Part shown: positions 392 through 5,053 of the stretch, piece by piece | Position numbering within the stretch: position 1 is the first letter of the stretch | How the letters are laid out: each line of letters opens with the position of its first letter | Source: a virus | Virus record (IMG/VR): IMGVR_UViG_3300042890_000138 | Location: 1-21,234 of that record | Reading direction: 5' to 3' (one strand) | Length of the DNA stretch: 21,234 bases | Translations under genes and position numbers: made by a program | Notes under the pieces: generated by a model | Told to the model about the DNA's origin: nothing | The model's database searches: none | What the model saw: only the letters and a program-made list of their open reading frames with translations

Positions 392-1621
392 ATGGGTATT
401 TATCGTGGTCCTGGTGGGCCAGGAGATGCTACAGGTGATGCAGCCAATGAGGCAGTAATTGCTAAACAAGCAGCTGATGAAGCAGAGGCTAGTGCCTTAG
501 CTGCTGCTAGTAGTGCTACTGCTGCTGCAGCGTCAGCATCAAGTGCCTCGACAAGCTCAACTAATGCAAGTAACCAAGCCACAGCTGCAGCCTCATCTGC
601 AAGTGCTGCTTCTACTTCTGCATCTAATGCTGCTACAAGTGCTACTGCAGCACAGACTGCTGAAACAAATGCAGAAACTGCAGAGGCTAATGCAGAGACA
701 GCAGAAGCTGGAGCAGAGTTAGCAGAATCTAATGCAAATGCTAGCGCAGCTTTAGCTCAAGATTGGGCTACAAAAACATCTGGGACTGTTGCAGGTGGAG
801 AATACTCAGCTAAATATCATGCACAAGCTGCTAGTACTTCTGCTACAAATGCAGCAAGCTCTGCTTCTAGTGCATCTACATCAGCTACATCAGCTTCAAC
901 TAGTGCATCAGCAGCAAGCACTTCTGCAACTAATGCTTCTAACTCAGCTAGTGCAGCCTCAACATCAGCAAGCAATGCTTCAACATCAGCAACTAACGCT
1001 GCAAGTTCTGCTACATCTGCTAGTAGTTCTGCAAGTACAGCTAGTACTCAAGCAGGAATAGCTACAACTAAAGCAGGAGAGGCTAGCACATCAGCTTCTA
1101 ATGCAGCAACATCTGAAACTAATGCCGCATCCAGTGCAAGTGCAGCAAGTACTAGCGCCTCTAATGCAAGTACGTCAGCTACTAACGCAGCTAATTCAGC
1201 AACTGCTGCTAGTAACTCAGCTACAAGTGCAAGTGGTAGTGCAAGTAGTGCAGCAACGTCAGCAACAAATGCTGCAGCAAGTGCAACATTAGCAGCTAGT
1301 TATACTCCTAGTCAAACAGGAAATGCAGGTAAGTTTCTTACAACTAATGGTAGTGTAACTTCTTGGGGAACAGTTGATGCTTTACCAAGTCAATCTGGAA
1401 ACTCAGGTAAGTACTTAACTACCAATGGTACAGTAGCTTCTTGGAATACACTAGACACAGATGCTAATAAAACTACTAAAGGTTTATATGAACATAGTAA
1501 TACTATTTCTGTAAACTATACAATAGCTACAGGAAACAATGCAATGAGTGTAGGACCACTAACTATTAATAGTGGTGTTACAGTTACTGTGCCAAGCGGT
1601 TCTAATTGGAAGGTTCTATAA
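392..1621 (+). CDS. Ala/Ser/Thr-rich tail fibre shaft protein
   Basis: The 409-residue product starts MGIYRGPGGPGDATGDA, a short Gly-rich N-terminus that I associate with podovirus fibre proteins. Residues about 20-300 are low-complexity Ala, Ser, Thr and Asn repeats (STSASNASTSATNAASSA type) with an AETAEANAETAEAGAE heptad-like stretch. This pattern is typical of trimeric coiled-coil shafts in phage tail fibres. One non-repetitive insert, around residues 120-145, contains DWATKTSGTVAGGEYSAKYH, a known tail-fibre motif. Residues 306-325 and 332-351 are two copies of a 20-residue unit (PSQ.GN.GK.LTTNG.V.SW). The C-terminus (NYTIATGNNAMSVGPLTINSGVTV...) resembles the end domain of fibres and tail spikes. 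The stop codon overlaps the ATG of the next gene (TAATG). Role: virion-attached extended fibre, probably a stalk or scaffold for adhesins; receptor unknown. Confidence 0.75.
   Translation: MGIYRGPGGPGDATGDAANEAVIAKQAADEAEASALAAASSATAAAASASSASTSSTNASNQATAAASSASAASTSASNAATSATAAQTAETNAETAEANAETAEAGAELAESNANASAALAQDWATKTSGTVAGGEYSAKYHAQAASTSATNAASSASSASTSATSASTSASAASTSATNASNSASAASTSASNASTSATNAASSATSASSSASTASTQAGIATTKAGEASTSASNAATSETNAASSASAASTSASNASTSATNAANSATAASNSATSASGSASSAATSATNAAASATLAASYTPSQTGNAGKFLTTNGSVTSWGTVDALPSQSGNSGKYLTTNGTVASWNTLDTDANKTTKGLYEHSNTISVNYTIATGNNAMSVGPLTINSGVTVTVPSGSNWKVL
1307..1444 (+). repeat. Two 60-bp in-frame repeats in the fibre gene
   Basis: Copy 1 is at 1307-1366 and copy 2 at 1385-1444, separated by six codons. 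Both encode a 20-residue unit of the form PSQ(T/S)GN(A/S)GK(F/Y)LTTNG(S/T)V(T/A)SW. Similarity is clear in protein but several synonymous differences have built up in DNA, so this is an old duplication. Related units occur in the fibre gene at 8210-8992 (STSGNVLTSNGTTW). The unit is a recurring small tail-fibre module. Confidence 0.8.
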
Positions 1622-2196
1622 TGGCTTCAATAATTAATGCAAGTACAAGTGGCGCTGGTGGCGTCATTACCACAGCAGATGCAAGTGGGGTATTAGAACT
1701 GCAATCTGGTGGCACAACTGTAGCAACGATAAGAGCGTCTGGTGTTAATGCTGGTATTCAAGTAGCTGCTAATGCTGCTCCAGCGTTTAGTGCTTATCAA
1801 AGCACAGACCAAACAGGATTATCTTCTAATACATATACAAAATGCAATTTCCAAACAGAAGAATTTGATACTAATTCTAATTTTGCTTCTTCAACTTTTA
1901 CACCTACAGTTGCTGGATATTATCAATTAAATTGGGGTGCCGATTTATATGCTGCTGGTGGCGGAACTGGATTTATTGCAGCCCTATATAAAAACGGTTC
2001 TTTATATAAAGCATCTAGTGGATTATTTAGTGGCTCAGCAACAGAGATTCAATCCGTTGGTTCAGCAATTGTTTACATGAATGGCTCAACTGATTATGTT
2101 GACGTATATGTAAGAATTGTTGGTGGCTCTGCAAGACAAACGTATTCTGCTATGCCCTATACATTTTTTAATGGCTCTATGATTAGGAGTGCATAA
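1621..2196 (+). CDS. C1q-like tail fibre/adhesin, unit 1
   Basis: The 191-residue product has an N-terminal attachment part (MASIINASTSGAGGVITTAD..., with ELQSGGTTVATIRASG) common in short phage fibres. Residues about 58-191 look like a C1q/TNF-like jelly-roll: AFSAYQS at the start, FDTNSNF, FTPTVAGYYQLNW, ALYKNGS, VYMNGSTDYVDVYV, and a final FFNGSMIRSA. C1q-like domains form trimers and serve as binding heads in phage adhesins. An upstream in-frame codon exists at 1606, but the ATG at 1621 is preferred because it makes a TAATG stop/start coupling with the previous gene and matches the usual N-terminus. A small chaperone-like gene follows directly. Likely role: receptor-binding tip; ligand unknown. 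Confidence 0.75.
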   Translation: MASIINASTSGAGGVITTADASGVLELQSGGTTVATIRASGVNAGIQVAANAAPAFSAYQSTDQTGLSSNTYTKCNFQTEEFDTNSNFASSTFTPTVAGYYQLNWGADLYAAGGGTGFIAALYKNGSLYKASSGLFSGSATEIQSVGSAIVYMNGSTDYVDVYVRIVGGSARQTYSAMPYTFFNGSMIRSA

Positions 2197-2197
2197 T

Positions 2198-2359
2198 ATG
2201 ACATTATACGAAAAAATAATTACTTTATATCCTGAATTAACTAATGAAGATTTTGTAAAAACAATTATTCTACAAAATGATTCAGATGGTAAAGGTGACT
2301 ACATAGCAGAATGGAATCATCCTACACTGCCACGTCCAACAGAGGAGCAATTAGCATGA
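2198..2359 (+). CDS. Small tail-fibre assembly/chaperone-like protein (XkdW/YorD type), unit 1
   Basis: The gene encodes 53 residues starting MTLYEKIITLYPELTNEDF and containing LQNDSDGKGDYIAEW and LPRPTEEQLA. This is the layout of the small XkdW/SP-beta YorD-like family found directly downstream of phage fibre genes; some relatives are annotated as fibre assembly chaperones. It starts 1 base after the adhesin stop and its TGA overlaps the ATG of the next adhesin (ATGA), so it is translationally coupled to both. A close paralogue is at 2889-3056. The exact function of the family is not established; fibre folding or assembly is inferred from context. Confidence 0.75.
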   Translation: MTLYEKIITLYPELTNEDFVKTIILQNDSDGKGDYIAEWNHPTLPRPTEEQLA

Positions 2360-2889
2360 GCGCAATCGTAATCGCTGGGGACACCTCAGGCTCAGTAACA
2401 CTAGATGCACCAGCAAATGCAGGGACAACCGTATTAACATTGCCAGCTACAAGTGGTACTGTAATGGTGAATGGTCCAGCGTTTAGTGTATCTAGAATAA
2501 CAACAAATCAATCCATATCTATTGGTGTTTATACAAAAGTTCAGTTTAACAATGTTAGTTACGATACTAACAGTAATTGGGATGCTGCAAATTATAGGTT
2601 TATACCTTCAGTCGCTGGATATTATCAATTTAATTTAAATGTAACAAGTGCTTCTTCTGGTGTTATTGCCGTATTTACTACTATTTGGAAAAATGGAACT
2701 GAATCGGCATGGGCAACCCTTCAAACATCAGGTGGTCGAAGCACCCCTACTGTATCTACTGTTTTATATATGAACGGAACTACAGATTATGTTGAAGGTT
2801 ACGGTTTTATAGAGGCTGGAACAAGTCCTGTTTTTCAATCTGGAAATGCACGAACAAGTTTCTCTGGCTGCTTAGTGAGAGGTGCATAA
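2356..2889 (+). CDS. C1q-like tail fibre/adhesin, unit 2
   Basis: The 177-residue product is a paralogue of the adhesin at 1621-2196. Its N-terminus (MSAIVIAGDTSGSVTLDAPA, then TTVLTLPATSGTVMV) is a different but also common fibre attachment segment. Residues about 47-177 are again C1q-like: AFSVSRITTNQ, YDTNSNWDAANYRFIPSVAGYYQFNLN, IWKNGTE, LYMNGTTDYVEGYGF, and a final FSGCLVRGA. A longer in-frame reading from 2311 is rejected: it would cover the end of the previous gene, while the ATG at 2356 overlaps that gene's stop as ATGA. The TAA overlaps the next ATG. Likely a second receptor-binding head with different specificity. Confidence 0.75.
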   Translation: MSAIVIAGDTSGSVTLDAPANAGTTVLTLPATSGTVMVNGPAFSVSRITTNQSISIGVYTKVQFNNVSYDTNSNWDAANYRFIPSVAGYYQFNLNVTSASSGVIAVFTTIWKNGTESAWATLQTSGGRSTPTVSTVLYMNGTTDYVEGYGFIEAGTSPVFQSGNARTSFSGCLVRGA

Positions 2890-3056
2890 TGACACTATAT
2901 GAAAAAATTATTTCACTTTACCCTGAATTAGCATTGCATGATTTTGCCTCTGGTACTATCCGCTTACAAAACGATAGCGATGGTCGTGGTGACTACATAG
3001 CAGAATGGAATCATACTTTGCCTAGACCTACAGATGAACAATTAGGAGCAGTATAA
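2889..3056 (+). CDS. Small tail-fibre assembly/chaperone-like protein (XkdW/YorD type), unit 2
   Basis: The gene encodes 55 residues starting MTLYEKIISLYPELALHDF, with LQNDSDGRGDYIAEWNH and LPRPTDEQLGAV. It is clearly paralogous to the protein at 2198-2359; a DNA stretch of over 25 bases around GACTACATAGCAGAATGG is identical in both. It is coupled to its neighbours by one-base overlaps (TAATG) on both sides. The pair 'C1q adhesin plus this protein' therefore exists twice in tandem. Function is inferred from context as for the first copy. Confidence 0.75.
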   Translation: MTLYEKIISLYPELALHDFASGTIRLQNDSDGRGDYIAEWNHTLPRPTDEQLGAV

Positions 3057-3163
3057 TGCCAATAACATTAAACGGCGATAGTGGCATAACCACTCCTACC
3101 TACGGTGGCTCAGTAACGGCAGAATACTCTGTCCCTGTAACAGCATTTAAGAATCGTAAATGA
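3056..3163 (+). pseudogene. Truncated tail fibre N-terminus, cut off at the homing endonuclease
   Basis: This 35-codon frame (MPITLNGDSGITTPTYGG...FKNRK, then TGA) matches the first 34 residues of the full fibre at 3675-4682 at 23 positions. In the intact gene the sequence continues KNR-LINGACMIDQRNAG; here it stops right after KNR. It is therefore the 5' remnant of a fibre gene whose body has been lost. It keeps the TAATG coupling with the upstream gene, so it is still translated. Its TGA overlaps the endonuclease start as ATGA. DNA identity with the intact 5' end is low, so this is not a recent duplication. Confidence 0.8.
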
Positions 3164-3684
3164 CAGCTAGAATTTACCTAGTTACCAATAATGTTAATGG
3201 CAAGCAATATGTTGGGCAAACAATTACTCAACATAGTAGACATGGGCATGGTCATGCAATGCGTGATGCTTATAAGAAGTATGGATTTAAAAACTTTACT
3301 TATGACATTGTTGTAAGTGGTATAGATAAAGACAATTTGTTTTTAGATTATGCTGAAAAGTTTTGGATTGAAGTGATGAATACATTAGCACCTAATGGAT
3401 ATAACCTAGAATCTGGTGGTAAACGTGGGAAAATTGTTCATCATACTCCAAACAAAGGTAAGAAAGCTTCTGAAGAAACTCGTAAGAAAATGTCTGAATC
3501 ACAGCGTAAACATTGGTCATCTTATGATGTGCATCCACGCAAAGGAAGTCAGCATACTGAAGAATGGAAACAAGCTGCTAGTGAAAGAATGAAAAAACAA
3601 GTTCAATCTGAAGAAACTAAACTTAAACGCAGCGAATCAATTAAACAATGGCATAAGAAGCGGAAGGAAATGCAATGCCTATAA
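3160..3684 (+). CDS. GIY-YIG homing endonuclease with NUMOD3-like repeats
   Basis: The 174-residue protein has an N-terminal GIY-YIG nuclease domain: IYLVTN at 5-10, YVGQT at 17-21, an Arg region at 24-35, catalytic Glu66 in AEKFWIE, and Asn82 in GYNLESGG. After residue 98 it has repeated basic segments of NUMOD3 type (GKKASEETRKKMSESQRKH, GSQHTEEWKQAASERM, SEETKLKRSESIKQW) that bind DNA in free-standing and intron-encoded homing endonucleases. There is no Shine-Dalgarno sequence; its ATG overlaps the stop of the truncated fibre (ATGA), so translation probably depends on coupling. Its 3' end runs 10 bases into the next fibre gene and supplies that gene's AAGGA ribosome-binding site. Likely role: cutting phage DNA that lacks the insert and spreading this fibre locus by recombination. 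Confidence 0.9.
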   Translation: MTARIYLVTNNVNGKQYVGQTITQHSRHGHGHAMRDAYKKYGFKNFTYDIVVSGIDKDNLFLDYAEKFWIEVMNTLAPNGYNLESGGKRGKIVHHTPNKGKKASEETRKKMSESQRKHWSSYDVHPRKGSQHTEEWKQAASERMKKQVQSEETKLKRSESIKQWHKKRKEMQCL

Positions 3685-4682
3685 TTTTGGATGGAAGTCT
3701 AGGAATTACAACTCCGACTTATGGGGGTGCTGATACTGCGGAATACATTACACCTGTTGTAGGGATGAAAAATCGTCTGATAAATGGGGCGTGCATGATT
3801 GACCAGCGTAATGCTGGGGCTAGTGTTACTCCCGCTAGTTTCTCTTATACATTAGACCGCTGGCGAGCTGTCCAAACTGCTGCTTCAAAGTTTTCTATTC
3901 AACAAAATGCAGGTTCAGTAACTCCACCAGTAGGATTTAGTAATTATCTAGGGGTTACATCTTTATCTTCATTCTCTGCAACAAGTGATGTTTTTGCTAT
4001 TTACCAGTCAATTGAAGGTTTCAATACTTCTGATTTGGCATTTGGAACAGCCAATGCATCATCTGTTACAATATCGTTTTGGGTTCGTTCATCGCTAACT
4101 GGAACATTTGGCGGTGCAATTAAAAATAGTGCTGGTAATAGATGTTATCCGTTTGCTTATACAATTTCATCCGCAAACACTTGGGAACAAAAATCAGTAA
4201 ATATTGCTGGAGATACAACTGGCACTTGGCTAACAACCAATGGTATTGGTATTTCTGTTGTGTTTGGATTAGGTGTTGGTGCTTCTTCTAGTGCAACTGC
4301 AAATTCTTGGACTTCATCAGATGTTTGGTCAGCAACAGGCGCAACCTCAGTAGTCGGCACTAACGGTGCTACTTTCTACATCACAGGCGTTCAACTAGAA
4401 AAAGGCTCTACAGCTACATCCTTTGACTATAGACCTTATGGTACAGAGTTAGTGTTATGCCAACGATATTTTGAAGCAGTTCCTACTGTTGTTAATGCTT
4501 CAGGAGGATTATTTCAAAACAACTTTTATAAAGTAAATAAGCGGACAGCACCAACATTGGCATTGGTATTTGGCTCTATTTCTCCAGCGACTTTAAATAG
4601 TAGAGATGTTAATTATTTTACAATAGATGGATTAGCTACTTCAAATGCAGTAGTGTCTGTAACAGCAACAGCGGAACTATAA
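3675..4682 (+). CDS. Tail fibre with carbohydrate-binding-like jelly roll
   Basis: The 335-residue product begins MPIILDGSLGITTPTYGG, a standard phage fibre N-terminus. It continues with KNRLINGACMIDQRNAG and DRWRAVQT, then a jelly-roll-like region (YQSIEGFNTSDLAFG, VTISFWVRSSLTGTFGG, NTWEQKSVNIAGDTTGTW, GATFYITGVQLEKGSTATSFDYRPYGTELVLCQRYF). This DRW...SFWVRS...GVQLEKG...RPYGTEL.LCQRYF pattern is widespread in fibres of aquatic and enteric podoviruses, where it resembles carbohydrate-binding modules. The C-terminal 70 residues after CQRYF are probably a variable tip. The start at 3675 is backed by AAGGA 6 bases upstream, inside the endonuclease gene. Followed after 3 bases by its small partner gene. 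Likely a receptor-binding fibre. Confidence 0.8.
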   Translation: MPIILDGSLGITTPTYGGADTAEYITPVVGMKNRLINGACMIDQRNAGASVTPASFSYTLDRWRAVQTAASKFSIQQNAGSVTPPVGFSNYLGVTSLSSFSATSDVFAIYQSIEGFNTSDLAFGTANASSVTISFWVRSSLTGTFGGAIKNSAGNRCYPFAYTISSANTWEQKSVNIAGDTTGTWLTTNGIGISVVFGLGVGASSSATANSWTSSDVWSATGATSVVGTNGATFYITGVQLEKGSTATSFDYRPYGTELVLCQRYFEAVPTVVNASGGLFQNNFYKVNKRTAPTLALVFGSISPATLNSRDVNYFTIDGLATSNAVVSVTATAEL

Positions 4683-4685
4683 TTT

Positions 4686-4859
4686 ATGTATAAACTAATT
4701 AAAGATAGTCTTACCAATACCGTAAATTCTGTACAACGTTTATCAGACAATGCTTGTATCCCATTTGACCCAGCTAACACAGACTACCAAGCATATTTAA
4801 AATGGCTTGAAAAAGGCAATACACCAGAACCAGCAGATGAACTAAATACAACACTATAA
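4686..4859 (+). CDS. Small fibre-associated protein
   Basis: The gene encodes 57 residues: [19 protein letters not shown], then [21 protein letters not shown] and [10 protein letters not shown]. Proteins of this pattern ('...RL.DNA.IPFD.ANTDYQ.YL.W...GN.P.PAD') are found right after fibre genes in many phages and probably assist fibre folding or assembly, a role equivalent to the XkdW-like genes of units 1 and 2. It starts 3 bases after the fibre stop. The family match is from memory of the motif; the function is inferred. Confidence 0.75.
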
Positions 4860-4873
4860 CTAAGGACTAAGGA

Positions 4874-5053
4874 ATGACTCCTGAAGAACAAAAAGAAATA
4901 CACAAAGCTGCTATTAAAGAAGCTATAGGAGAGTGGCTAGATAAGCAGTTCATTACCTTAGGTAAGTGGACTCTTAAAGGATTATCTGCAATGGGTTTAG
5001 CTGTGCTTGTTTACCTGTGGGCAGCTGCTCATGGATGGACTATTAAGCTATGA
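4874..5053 (+). CDS. Small single-span membrane protein of the lysis group
   Basis: The gene encodes 59 residues. The N-terminal half is charged (MTPEEQKEIHKAAIKEAIGEW), followed by one hydrophobic segment at about 36-55 (GLSAMGLAVLVYLWAAAHGW). The start is preceded by an AGGACTAAGGA purine run. Its TGA overlaps the ATG of the endolysin gene (ATGA). One transmembrane helix directly before an endolysin suggests a holin or spanin-like accessory, but the sequence alone does not settle which. A second hydrophobic small protein follows the endolysin. Confidence 0.7.
   Translation: MTPEEQKEIHKAAIKEAIGEWLDKQFITLGKWTLKGLSAMGLAVLVYLWAAAHGWTIKL

Follow-up and report, generated by a model that had tools for sequence, protein, structure and literature searches.

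Comparison of the tail-fibre genes in a 21,234-base virus record, the whole of which we refer to as the window, with related loci in other viral contigs points to a homing element that dispenses with an intron and that probably consists of an endonuclease gene together with a spare, recoded 5' end of the fibre gene hosting it. At this locus, the beginning of a resident fibre gene is cut short (the remnant), an endonuclease ORF overlaps its stop codon, and a complete fibre gene with a second, differently worded N-terminus (termed N-term B) begins within the endonuclease ORF (Table 1).

Table 1. Features of the interrupted fibre locus in the window
Feature	Position	Strand	Basis
XkdW-like companion gene of the preceding fibre	2889..3056	+	Pfam XkdW (PF09636), E=3e-9; its stop overlaps the remnant ATG
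Remnant of the resident fibre N-terminus; 34 codons up to KNR, one K codon and the stop	3056..3163	+	DNA identity with L052
Left break, the limit of homology to the intact fibre, after AAGAATCG(T)	3149..3157	+	Direct comparison with L052 AAGAATCGCCTGATTAACGG
GIY-YIG/NUMOD3 endonuclease, family A1	3160..3684	+	PF01541, PF07460, PHROG 314
AAGGAA, Shine-Dalgarno-like sequence for the downstream fibre, in the conserved KRKE codons of the endonuclease C-terminus	3664..3669	+	Sequence
N-term B, substitute fibre N-terminus with synonymous rewording; 34 codons up to KNR	3675..3776	+	Identity counts
KNR/LINGACMIDQRNAG junction, boundary of N-terminus and body, presumed right homology arm	3768..3810	+	Conserved in >120 distinct fibres
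Fibre body, proposed resident	3777..4682	+	PHROG 4492; bodies vary independently in related elements
Fibre companion gene, syntenic with L052	4686..4859	+	PHROG 20370, E=2e-13

The interrupted locus and its empty counterpart

The remnant ORF encodes 35 amino acids (MPITLNGDSGITTPTYGGSVTAEYSVPVTAFKNRK, ending in ...VPVTAFKNRK) and closes with a TGA at 3161-3163, which the endonuclease ATG (3160-3162) overlaps as ATGA; the endonuclease (174 residues) ends 10 bp inside the next fibre, which runs from its ATG at 3675 to 4682, is complete at 335 residues and matches tail-fibre PHROG 4492 (E=4e-48). The original prediction had the resident fibre gene stopping right after codon 34 at KNR; the truncation is real, with one lysine codon standing between KNR and the stop. 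Its assignment of the overlapping ORF as a GIY-YIG/NUMOD3 endonuclease was borne out, both domains scoring above the Pfam cut-off (PF01541, 26.4 vs. 22.6 bits; PF07460, 28.5 vs. 20.4 bits), with a match to homing-endonuclease PHROG 314 (E=3e-30) and an alignment with the catalytic domain of I-TevI (1LN0). So was its observation that the endonuclease ends within the start of a complete fibre resembling the remnant in protein and diverged in DNA: the two N-termini are identical at 23 of 34 residues but at only 63 of 102 bases, use the same codon at 7 of 22 shared amino acids and have a longest exact match of 6 nt. Both junctions occur at 100% identity in a second contig (L002). The surroundings of the locus form a tandem array of fibre-like genes (392-4859), several of them followed by a small companion ORF, and the segments 2189-2354 and 2882-3045 are diverged duplicates with 73% DNA identity. 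An XkdW-like gene is also found upstream of the element in L200.

The counterpart without an endonuclease, which the original prediction had asked for, is found in a sister phage (L052), whose DNA is 87% identical to the window over 3.7 kb downstream and 83% identical over 1.5 kb upstream. At the same locus L052 has one fibre gene of 336 residues and no endonuclease, with a remnant-like N-terminus that reads unbroken through AAGAATCGCCTGATTAACGG into the fibre body; as had been claimed, intact relatives (L052 and L007) continue past KNR as KNR(L/I)ING. Over positions 3068-3156, the window remnant shows 87.6% DNA identity with the start of the intact L052 fibre, which is the level of the flanking genes, and 22 of 26 shared amino acids use the same codon, as compared with only 6 of 21 between N-term B and the L052 start. 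The orthology and continuity of the L052 locus thus identify the remnant as the resident start, and the endonuclease with the second N-terminus as the foreign piece. Orthologous loci lacking the element and continuous across the insertion site were likewise found for two further elements (L292, with L015 as the empty locus, and L300, with L165). In three other close relatives (L050, L051 and L056, 93% identical downstream), an unrelated set of fibre genes lies between the same flanks as window positions 1111-4855, a whole-locus fibre replacement.

An insertion at a conserved site with flanking "exons" bears some resemblance to a group I intron or an intein, in which case remnant and body would be spliced and N-term B would be incidental. 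We regard this as hardly credible, since a start and a ribosome-binding site are already present for the downstream fibre, and a recoded N-term B would be pointless. A group I intron was rejected because no recognised intron RNA flanks the ORF, with no Rfam match up to E=1 at positions 2800-5000 of the window; an intein was rejected because the three ORFs occupy different reading frames and overlap through their stop and start codons.

Recurrence at one fibre junction

The arrangement in the window recurs in dozens of loci and is thus far beyond chance. A pattern search with the N-terminal motif identified a locus (L070) in which the same type of remnant ends in ...VPVTA and a stop, but both the endonuclease behind it and the N-terminus of the ensuing fibre differ; accordingly, we distinguish two endonuclease families, A1 (window type) and A2 (L070 type). 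Searching with the motif INGAM(M/V)IDQRNAG yielded at least 127 distinct sequences of N-terminus plus ING, with an endonuclease immediately upstream in at least 8, while family searches yielded at least 41 non-duplicate A1 and A2 loci in uncultured phages, a number that includes close pairs, with independent insertions being fewer; all of these figures come from scans of viral contigs and are lower bounds. Among the matches listed for the family HMMs, every A1 or A2 member above 150 bits with downstream sequence lies directly upstream of an ING-motif fibre, the high-scoring exceptions being contig ends (L305, L309) and near-end contigs (L219/L220), whereas lower-scoring relatives (about 112 bits and below) are mostly located at other places. 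Loci of both families, among the matches listed, are found only directly upstream of (K/R)NR-(I/L)ING fibres. Close homologues were found neither in isolated phages nor in bacterial or archaeal genomes (best match 41%).

With respect to the endonucleases themselves, the combination of GIY-YIG and a NUMOD-type motif seen in the window is also present in L148, L223 and L225, whereas the GIY-YIG match of A2 falls below the Pfam cut-off throughout. In A2 members (L120, L170, L302, L303 and others), the catalytic part (PTALLVMTHNVTGLKYFCKT...) has no Pfam nuclease match above cut-off, NUMOD-like domains alone being recognised; A2 represents a second endonuclease family on the same target as A1. A hybrid endonuclease at the same fibre site (L187:1996-2793) is A2-like in its N-terminal part and A1-like in its C-terminal part. 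A third, distant and weakly GIY-YIG-like ORF ends at a fibre start in L096 (6328-6879, reverse strand numbering), at a locus without a remnant and with the FKNR site unchanged. By regular expression and inspection, HNH (NUMOD4-motif) endonucleases were not found at this fibre place in 120 motif-selected fibre loci.

A recognisable truncated fibre N-terminus lies upstream of the endonuclease in about 20 loci, and these remnants all end -5 to +3 codons from the KNR-type triplet preceding (I/L)ING, despite spanning several N-terminal families (MPITLNGDSGITTPTYGG..., MALTQVQPG..., MPYGQI..., MSVIIDGTAGVTFNDASIQNTAATGF and MSTVKANS...); the window remnant extends about three codons beyond the usual break. 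These results support the proposal that a mobile endonuclease entered a resident fibre gene, most likely at the conserved KNR/INGA junction. Several loci show an in-frame fusion of remnant and endonuclease (fusion point marked by a slash), among them L225, ...LAPSSAV/LNAQVYLVSN; L293, ...NTAATGF/NPTALLV; L302, ...QYTGN/WMPTALLV; and L303, ...SPENT/FAPTALLI. Where there is no fusion, the endonuclease begins at the remnant stop, overlapping it, or shortly after it (TAATG, TGATG, TAGTATG). In addition, the remnant is reduced to a few bases in L200 and to about five codons in L297, L299 and L300, and no remnant was seen in L120 and L130.

The fusions, overlaps and reduced remnants fit an endonuclease that uses the resident start signals, and they argue against the remnant being a gene of its own. 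A functional small gene of 35 codons next to an unrelated resident endonuclease would be in keeping with remnant ORFs that are open up to the break wherever they are recognised, but such open frames are also expected because the endonuclease would be translated from the remnant's start, and the same sequence is the fibre's own N-terminus in L052 and L007; we therefore give this possibility next to no credence, and the original reading of the ORF as a truncated remnant stands. Somewhat less remote, but still very improbable, is a tandem fibre duplication in which one of two adjacent fibres decayed and an ordinary free-standing endonuclease entered between them. Fibre genes do occur in tandem arrays (window 392-4682; L034, L092 and L103), but decay would not be expected to stop about 20 remnants at one position just before KNR rather than at random, L052 has one fibre here and not two, and both the start and the stop of the endonuclease are fused to, or overlapped with, fibre signals.

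The spare 5' end and the probable unit of movement

In all 41 loci listed, the 3' end of the endonuclease gene harbors a Shine-Dalgarno-like sequence at proper spacing to the fibre start, and the fibre start is positioned -15 to +3 nt from the endonuclease stop. N-term B and the local remnant are members of one family (alignment scores over 20 loci sum to 1383 vs. a permuted mean of 632, with none of 20,000 permutations as high), which indicates a functional stand-in whose sequence is presumably constrained by the need to attach to the virion. At the DNA level the two copies are reworded: codons at shared amino acids are identical in 65 of 215 cases (0.30, 15 loci pooled), compared with 0.44 in endonuclease-free control pairs matched for protein identity, and a value as low as 0.30 was reached in 2 of 20,000 simulations. 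The longest exact match between remnant and N-term B is at most 8 nt in 16 of 16 loci, and the clearest case, L290, combines 24 of 26 identical residues with 9 of 23 identical codons. In endonuclease-free fibres, the ING segment shows only mildly raised synonymous conservation (0.58 vs. about 0.45 in the body), to which we attach no weight.

Differences are also evident at the presumed target codons. The sequence AAYCG, covering Asn-Arg of KNR, is found in 100 of 128 endonuclease-free fibres vs. 2 of 15 fibres behind A1 (Fisher p=1.2e-6) and the longer AAGAAYCG in 54 of 128 vs. 0 of 15, whereas behind A2 the AAYCG core is not depleted (23 of 25) and AAGAAYCG is (3 of 25, p=0.006), often via RNR or VNR, these loci being related to each other so that the p-values overstate independence. 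Behind A1, Asn frequently gives way to Ser (KSR), or Arg CGN to AGA or Lys AAA; KSR is present at 0 of 128 endonuclease-free sites and, among the matches listed, behind A1 endonucleases only. L222 (MPITLNGDTGILTPMYNGSITSNAVTPSVNMKSR) and the endonuclease-free L153 (MPITLNGDTGITTPMYNGSITANAVTPSVNMKNR) form a near-minimal pair. In the window, the junction reads AAAAATCGTCTGATAAATGGG (AAAAATCGT CTG ATA AAT), with AATCG retained and its neighbours changed, and protection would thus depend on the neighbouring changes only. Altered target codons are the differences expected of element alleles that resist their own enzyme, if that enzyme cleaves here, and the diverged 5' end of the incoming gene fits the protective role suggested for it by the original prediction.

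As to which piece moves, the original prediction envisaged a cassette of endonuclease plus complete fibre that displaced the resident body, resulting in an endonuclease-driven exchange of adhesins. Pairs of related elements speak to this issue, as the identities for endonuclease, N-term B, ING and body, respectively, are: 1) 93%, 100%, 93% and 73% for L200/L291; 2) 96%, 92%, 98% and 68% for L298/L301; 3) 88%, 96%, 91% and 76% for L297/L299; 4) 83%, 99%, 94% and 72% for L224/L221; and 5) 85%, 95% and 82% for L315/L306, with bodies that are not alignable. Overall, endonucleases of related elements are 78-96% and N-term B 89-100% identical, while their bodies either show no more than background similarity or fail to align; the 400 bases upstream likewise fail to align in L200/L291 and L297/L299. 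With the body varying while endonuclease and N-term B stay similar, the co-inherited unit comprises endonuclease and N-term B (plus ING).

A full-fibre cassette would agree with the highly mosaic nature of fibre bodies and with the window body, the middle of which differs from that of L052. We nevertheless consider it unlikely, given that related elements do not share the body, that N-term B is matched in family to the remnant, as expected when a local 5' end is replaced, and that the 3' segment of the window fibre (98% identical at 4404-4450) and the downstream companion gene are those of the L052 locus, with DNA from 4746 onward being 87% identical and the downstream genes common to both. 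The sequences are best read as a mobile unit of endonuclease plus spare 5' end joined to a resident body, and we infer the same for the body in the window, for which no endonuclease-free relative carrying that body was found. Fibre bodies also turn over without endonucleases, a process that could blur an originally larger cassette, and there is a small probability that the window body arrived with the element. With endonuclease plus spare 5' end as the unit, the host-range exchange that had been predicted as cargo becomes a possible side effect.

Proposed mechanism and known systems

Based on these comparisons, we postulate that the endonuclease makes a double-strand cut in intact fibre genes at the conserved (F)KNR/(I/L)ING codons, and that an element-bearing co-infecting phage would serve as the repair template, with the recipient's own N-terminus as the left homology arm and the ING region as the right arm. 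Homing would then paste endonuclease plus N-term B between the arms, with the resident body subsequently read from the new N-term B. The old N-terminus would stay upstream as a truncated ORF, which in the window is the remnant and which we propose as a start or leader for the endonuclease as well as the left arm; its start signals would drive endonuclease translation via stop-start overlap (ATGA in the window) or in-frame fusion (other loci), and the endonuclease 3' end would supply the ribosome-binding site of the rebuilt fibre. Because its cut-site codons are altered and its whole length is reworded, N-term B would escape cutting by its own enzyme and would not loop out with the remnant, an outcome that selection may have disfavored.

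If correct, this scheme implies that a selfish gene can occupy an essential gene without splicing and without lethality, by providing a reworded copy of the part it severs and borrowing the old start codon. Fibre genes in metagenomic phages that seem "broken" by an endonuclease would, on this view, be working loci, and the scheme predicts an exact cut site together with resistant and sensitive alleles. For fibre modularity, usually ascribed to passive recombination at conserved linkers, it would offer a concrete, enzyme-driven cause. More tentatively, and with somewhat less than even confidence, we consider a general class of phage homing elements that carry, in recoded form, a spare end of whichever essential gene is their target (5' in fibres, perhaps 3' in the L003 portal) and that drive shuffling of fibre N-termini and bodies; endonucleases may act as such a driver because the target, at the boundary of virion-anchoring N-terminus and receptor-binding body, would be cut repeatedly. 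A possible 3' counterpart is seen in L003 (4780-5541), where the stop of a portal gene ending in RQGIEQSSTPFEVGGAAGGAAFGSTP is overlapped by a GIY-YIG ORF whose own end, RQGIEQAASPEAVTGMPGGPGFGSAA, looks like a displaced duplicate of the portal tail joined to it.

Exchange of distal tail-fibre parts at conserved motifs in T-even phages, as Tetart et al. (1998, cited in PMC7468147) reportedly described, resembles the present case in that conserved linkers are the recombination points between fibre modules; the T-even linker, unlike the present junction, is not known to be occupied by an endonuclease or to carry a spare 5' end. The free-standing Seg and Mob endonucleases of T4 are encoded between intact genes and cleave at distances of hundreds to thousands of bp (PMC2988022). 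Like the present system, they feature GIY-YIG enzymes that lie outside introns, overlap the upstream ORF, are translationally coupled and co-convert their flanks, but the present element is inside its presumed target gene, with a truncated version of one gene start on one side and a complete version on the other instead of two intact genes, and it carries a spare piece of that target. Endonucleases within essential phage genes are also exemplified by mobE in Aeh1 nrdA and mobA in T4 gene 60, where the host gene is split into two working polypeptides (PMC2988022); here, a duplicate takes the place of the lost piece, so that the protein remains undivided. Phage methylase genes with an out-of-frame HNH insertion of the ShiLan type offer another example of non-splicing, homing-like insertion; this insert is read through as an in-frame loop and is not reported to carry a substitute gene end (PMC11855218).

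In the open-access literature, a phage precedent for an endonuclease with a spare 5' end was not found. Judged from sequence, the nearest analogues of the putative element are fungal mitochondrial elements that combine an endonuclease with a spare 3' end, an arrangement that it mirrors at the 5' end of phage adhesin genes. In atp6, atp9, cox2 and nad3 of Glomus sp., an endonuclease ORF brings in a substitute C-terminus while the native C-terminus is left as a diverged duplicate, with conserved amino acids and diverged DNA (63.5% DNA identity between atp6 C-termini; PMC3630166), and a comparable element in Allomyces atp6 is attributed there to Paquin et al. 1994 (PNAS 91:11807, as cited in PMC3630166). 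In these systems as in ours, the endonuclease travels with a substitute end of the host gene, a hybrid gene results and the diverged native end is displaced beyond the endonuclease, the displaced end here being the 5' one. The fungal elements affect the 3' end of mitochondrial housekeeping genes and mostly encode LAGLIDADG enzymes, whereas those described here affect the 5' end of phage fibre genes; capture of the start codon by the endonuclease, a ribosome-binding site provided by the endonuclease gene and occurrence at dozens of loci further set the phage elements apart.
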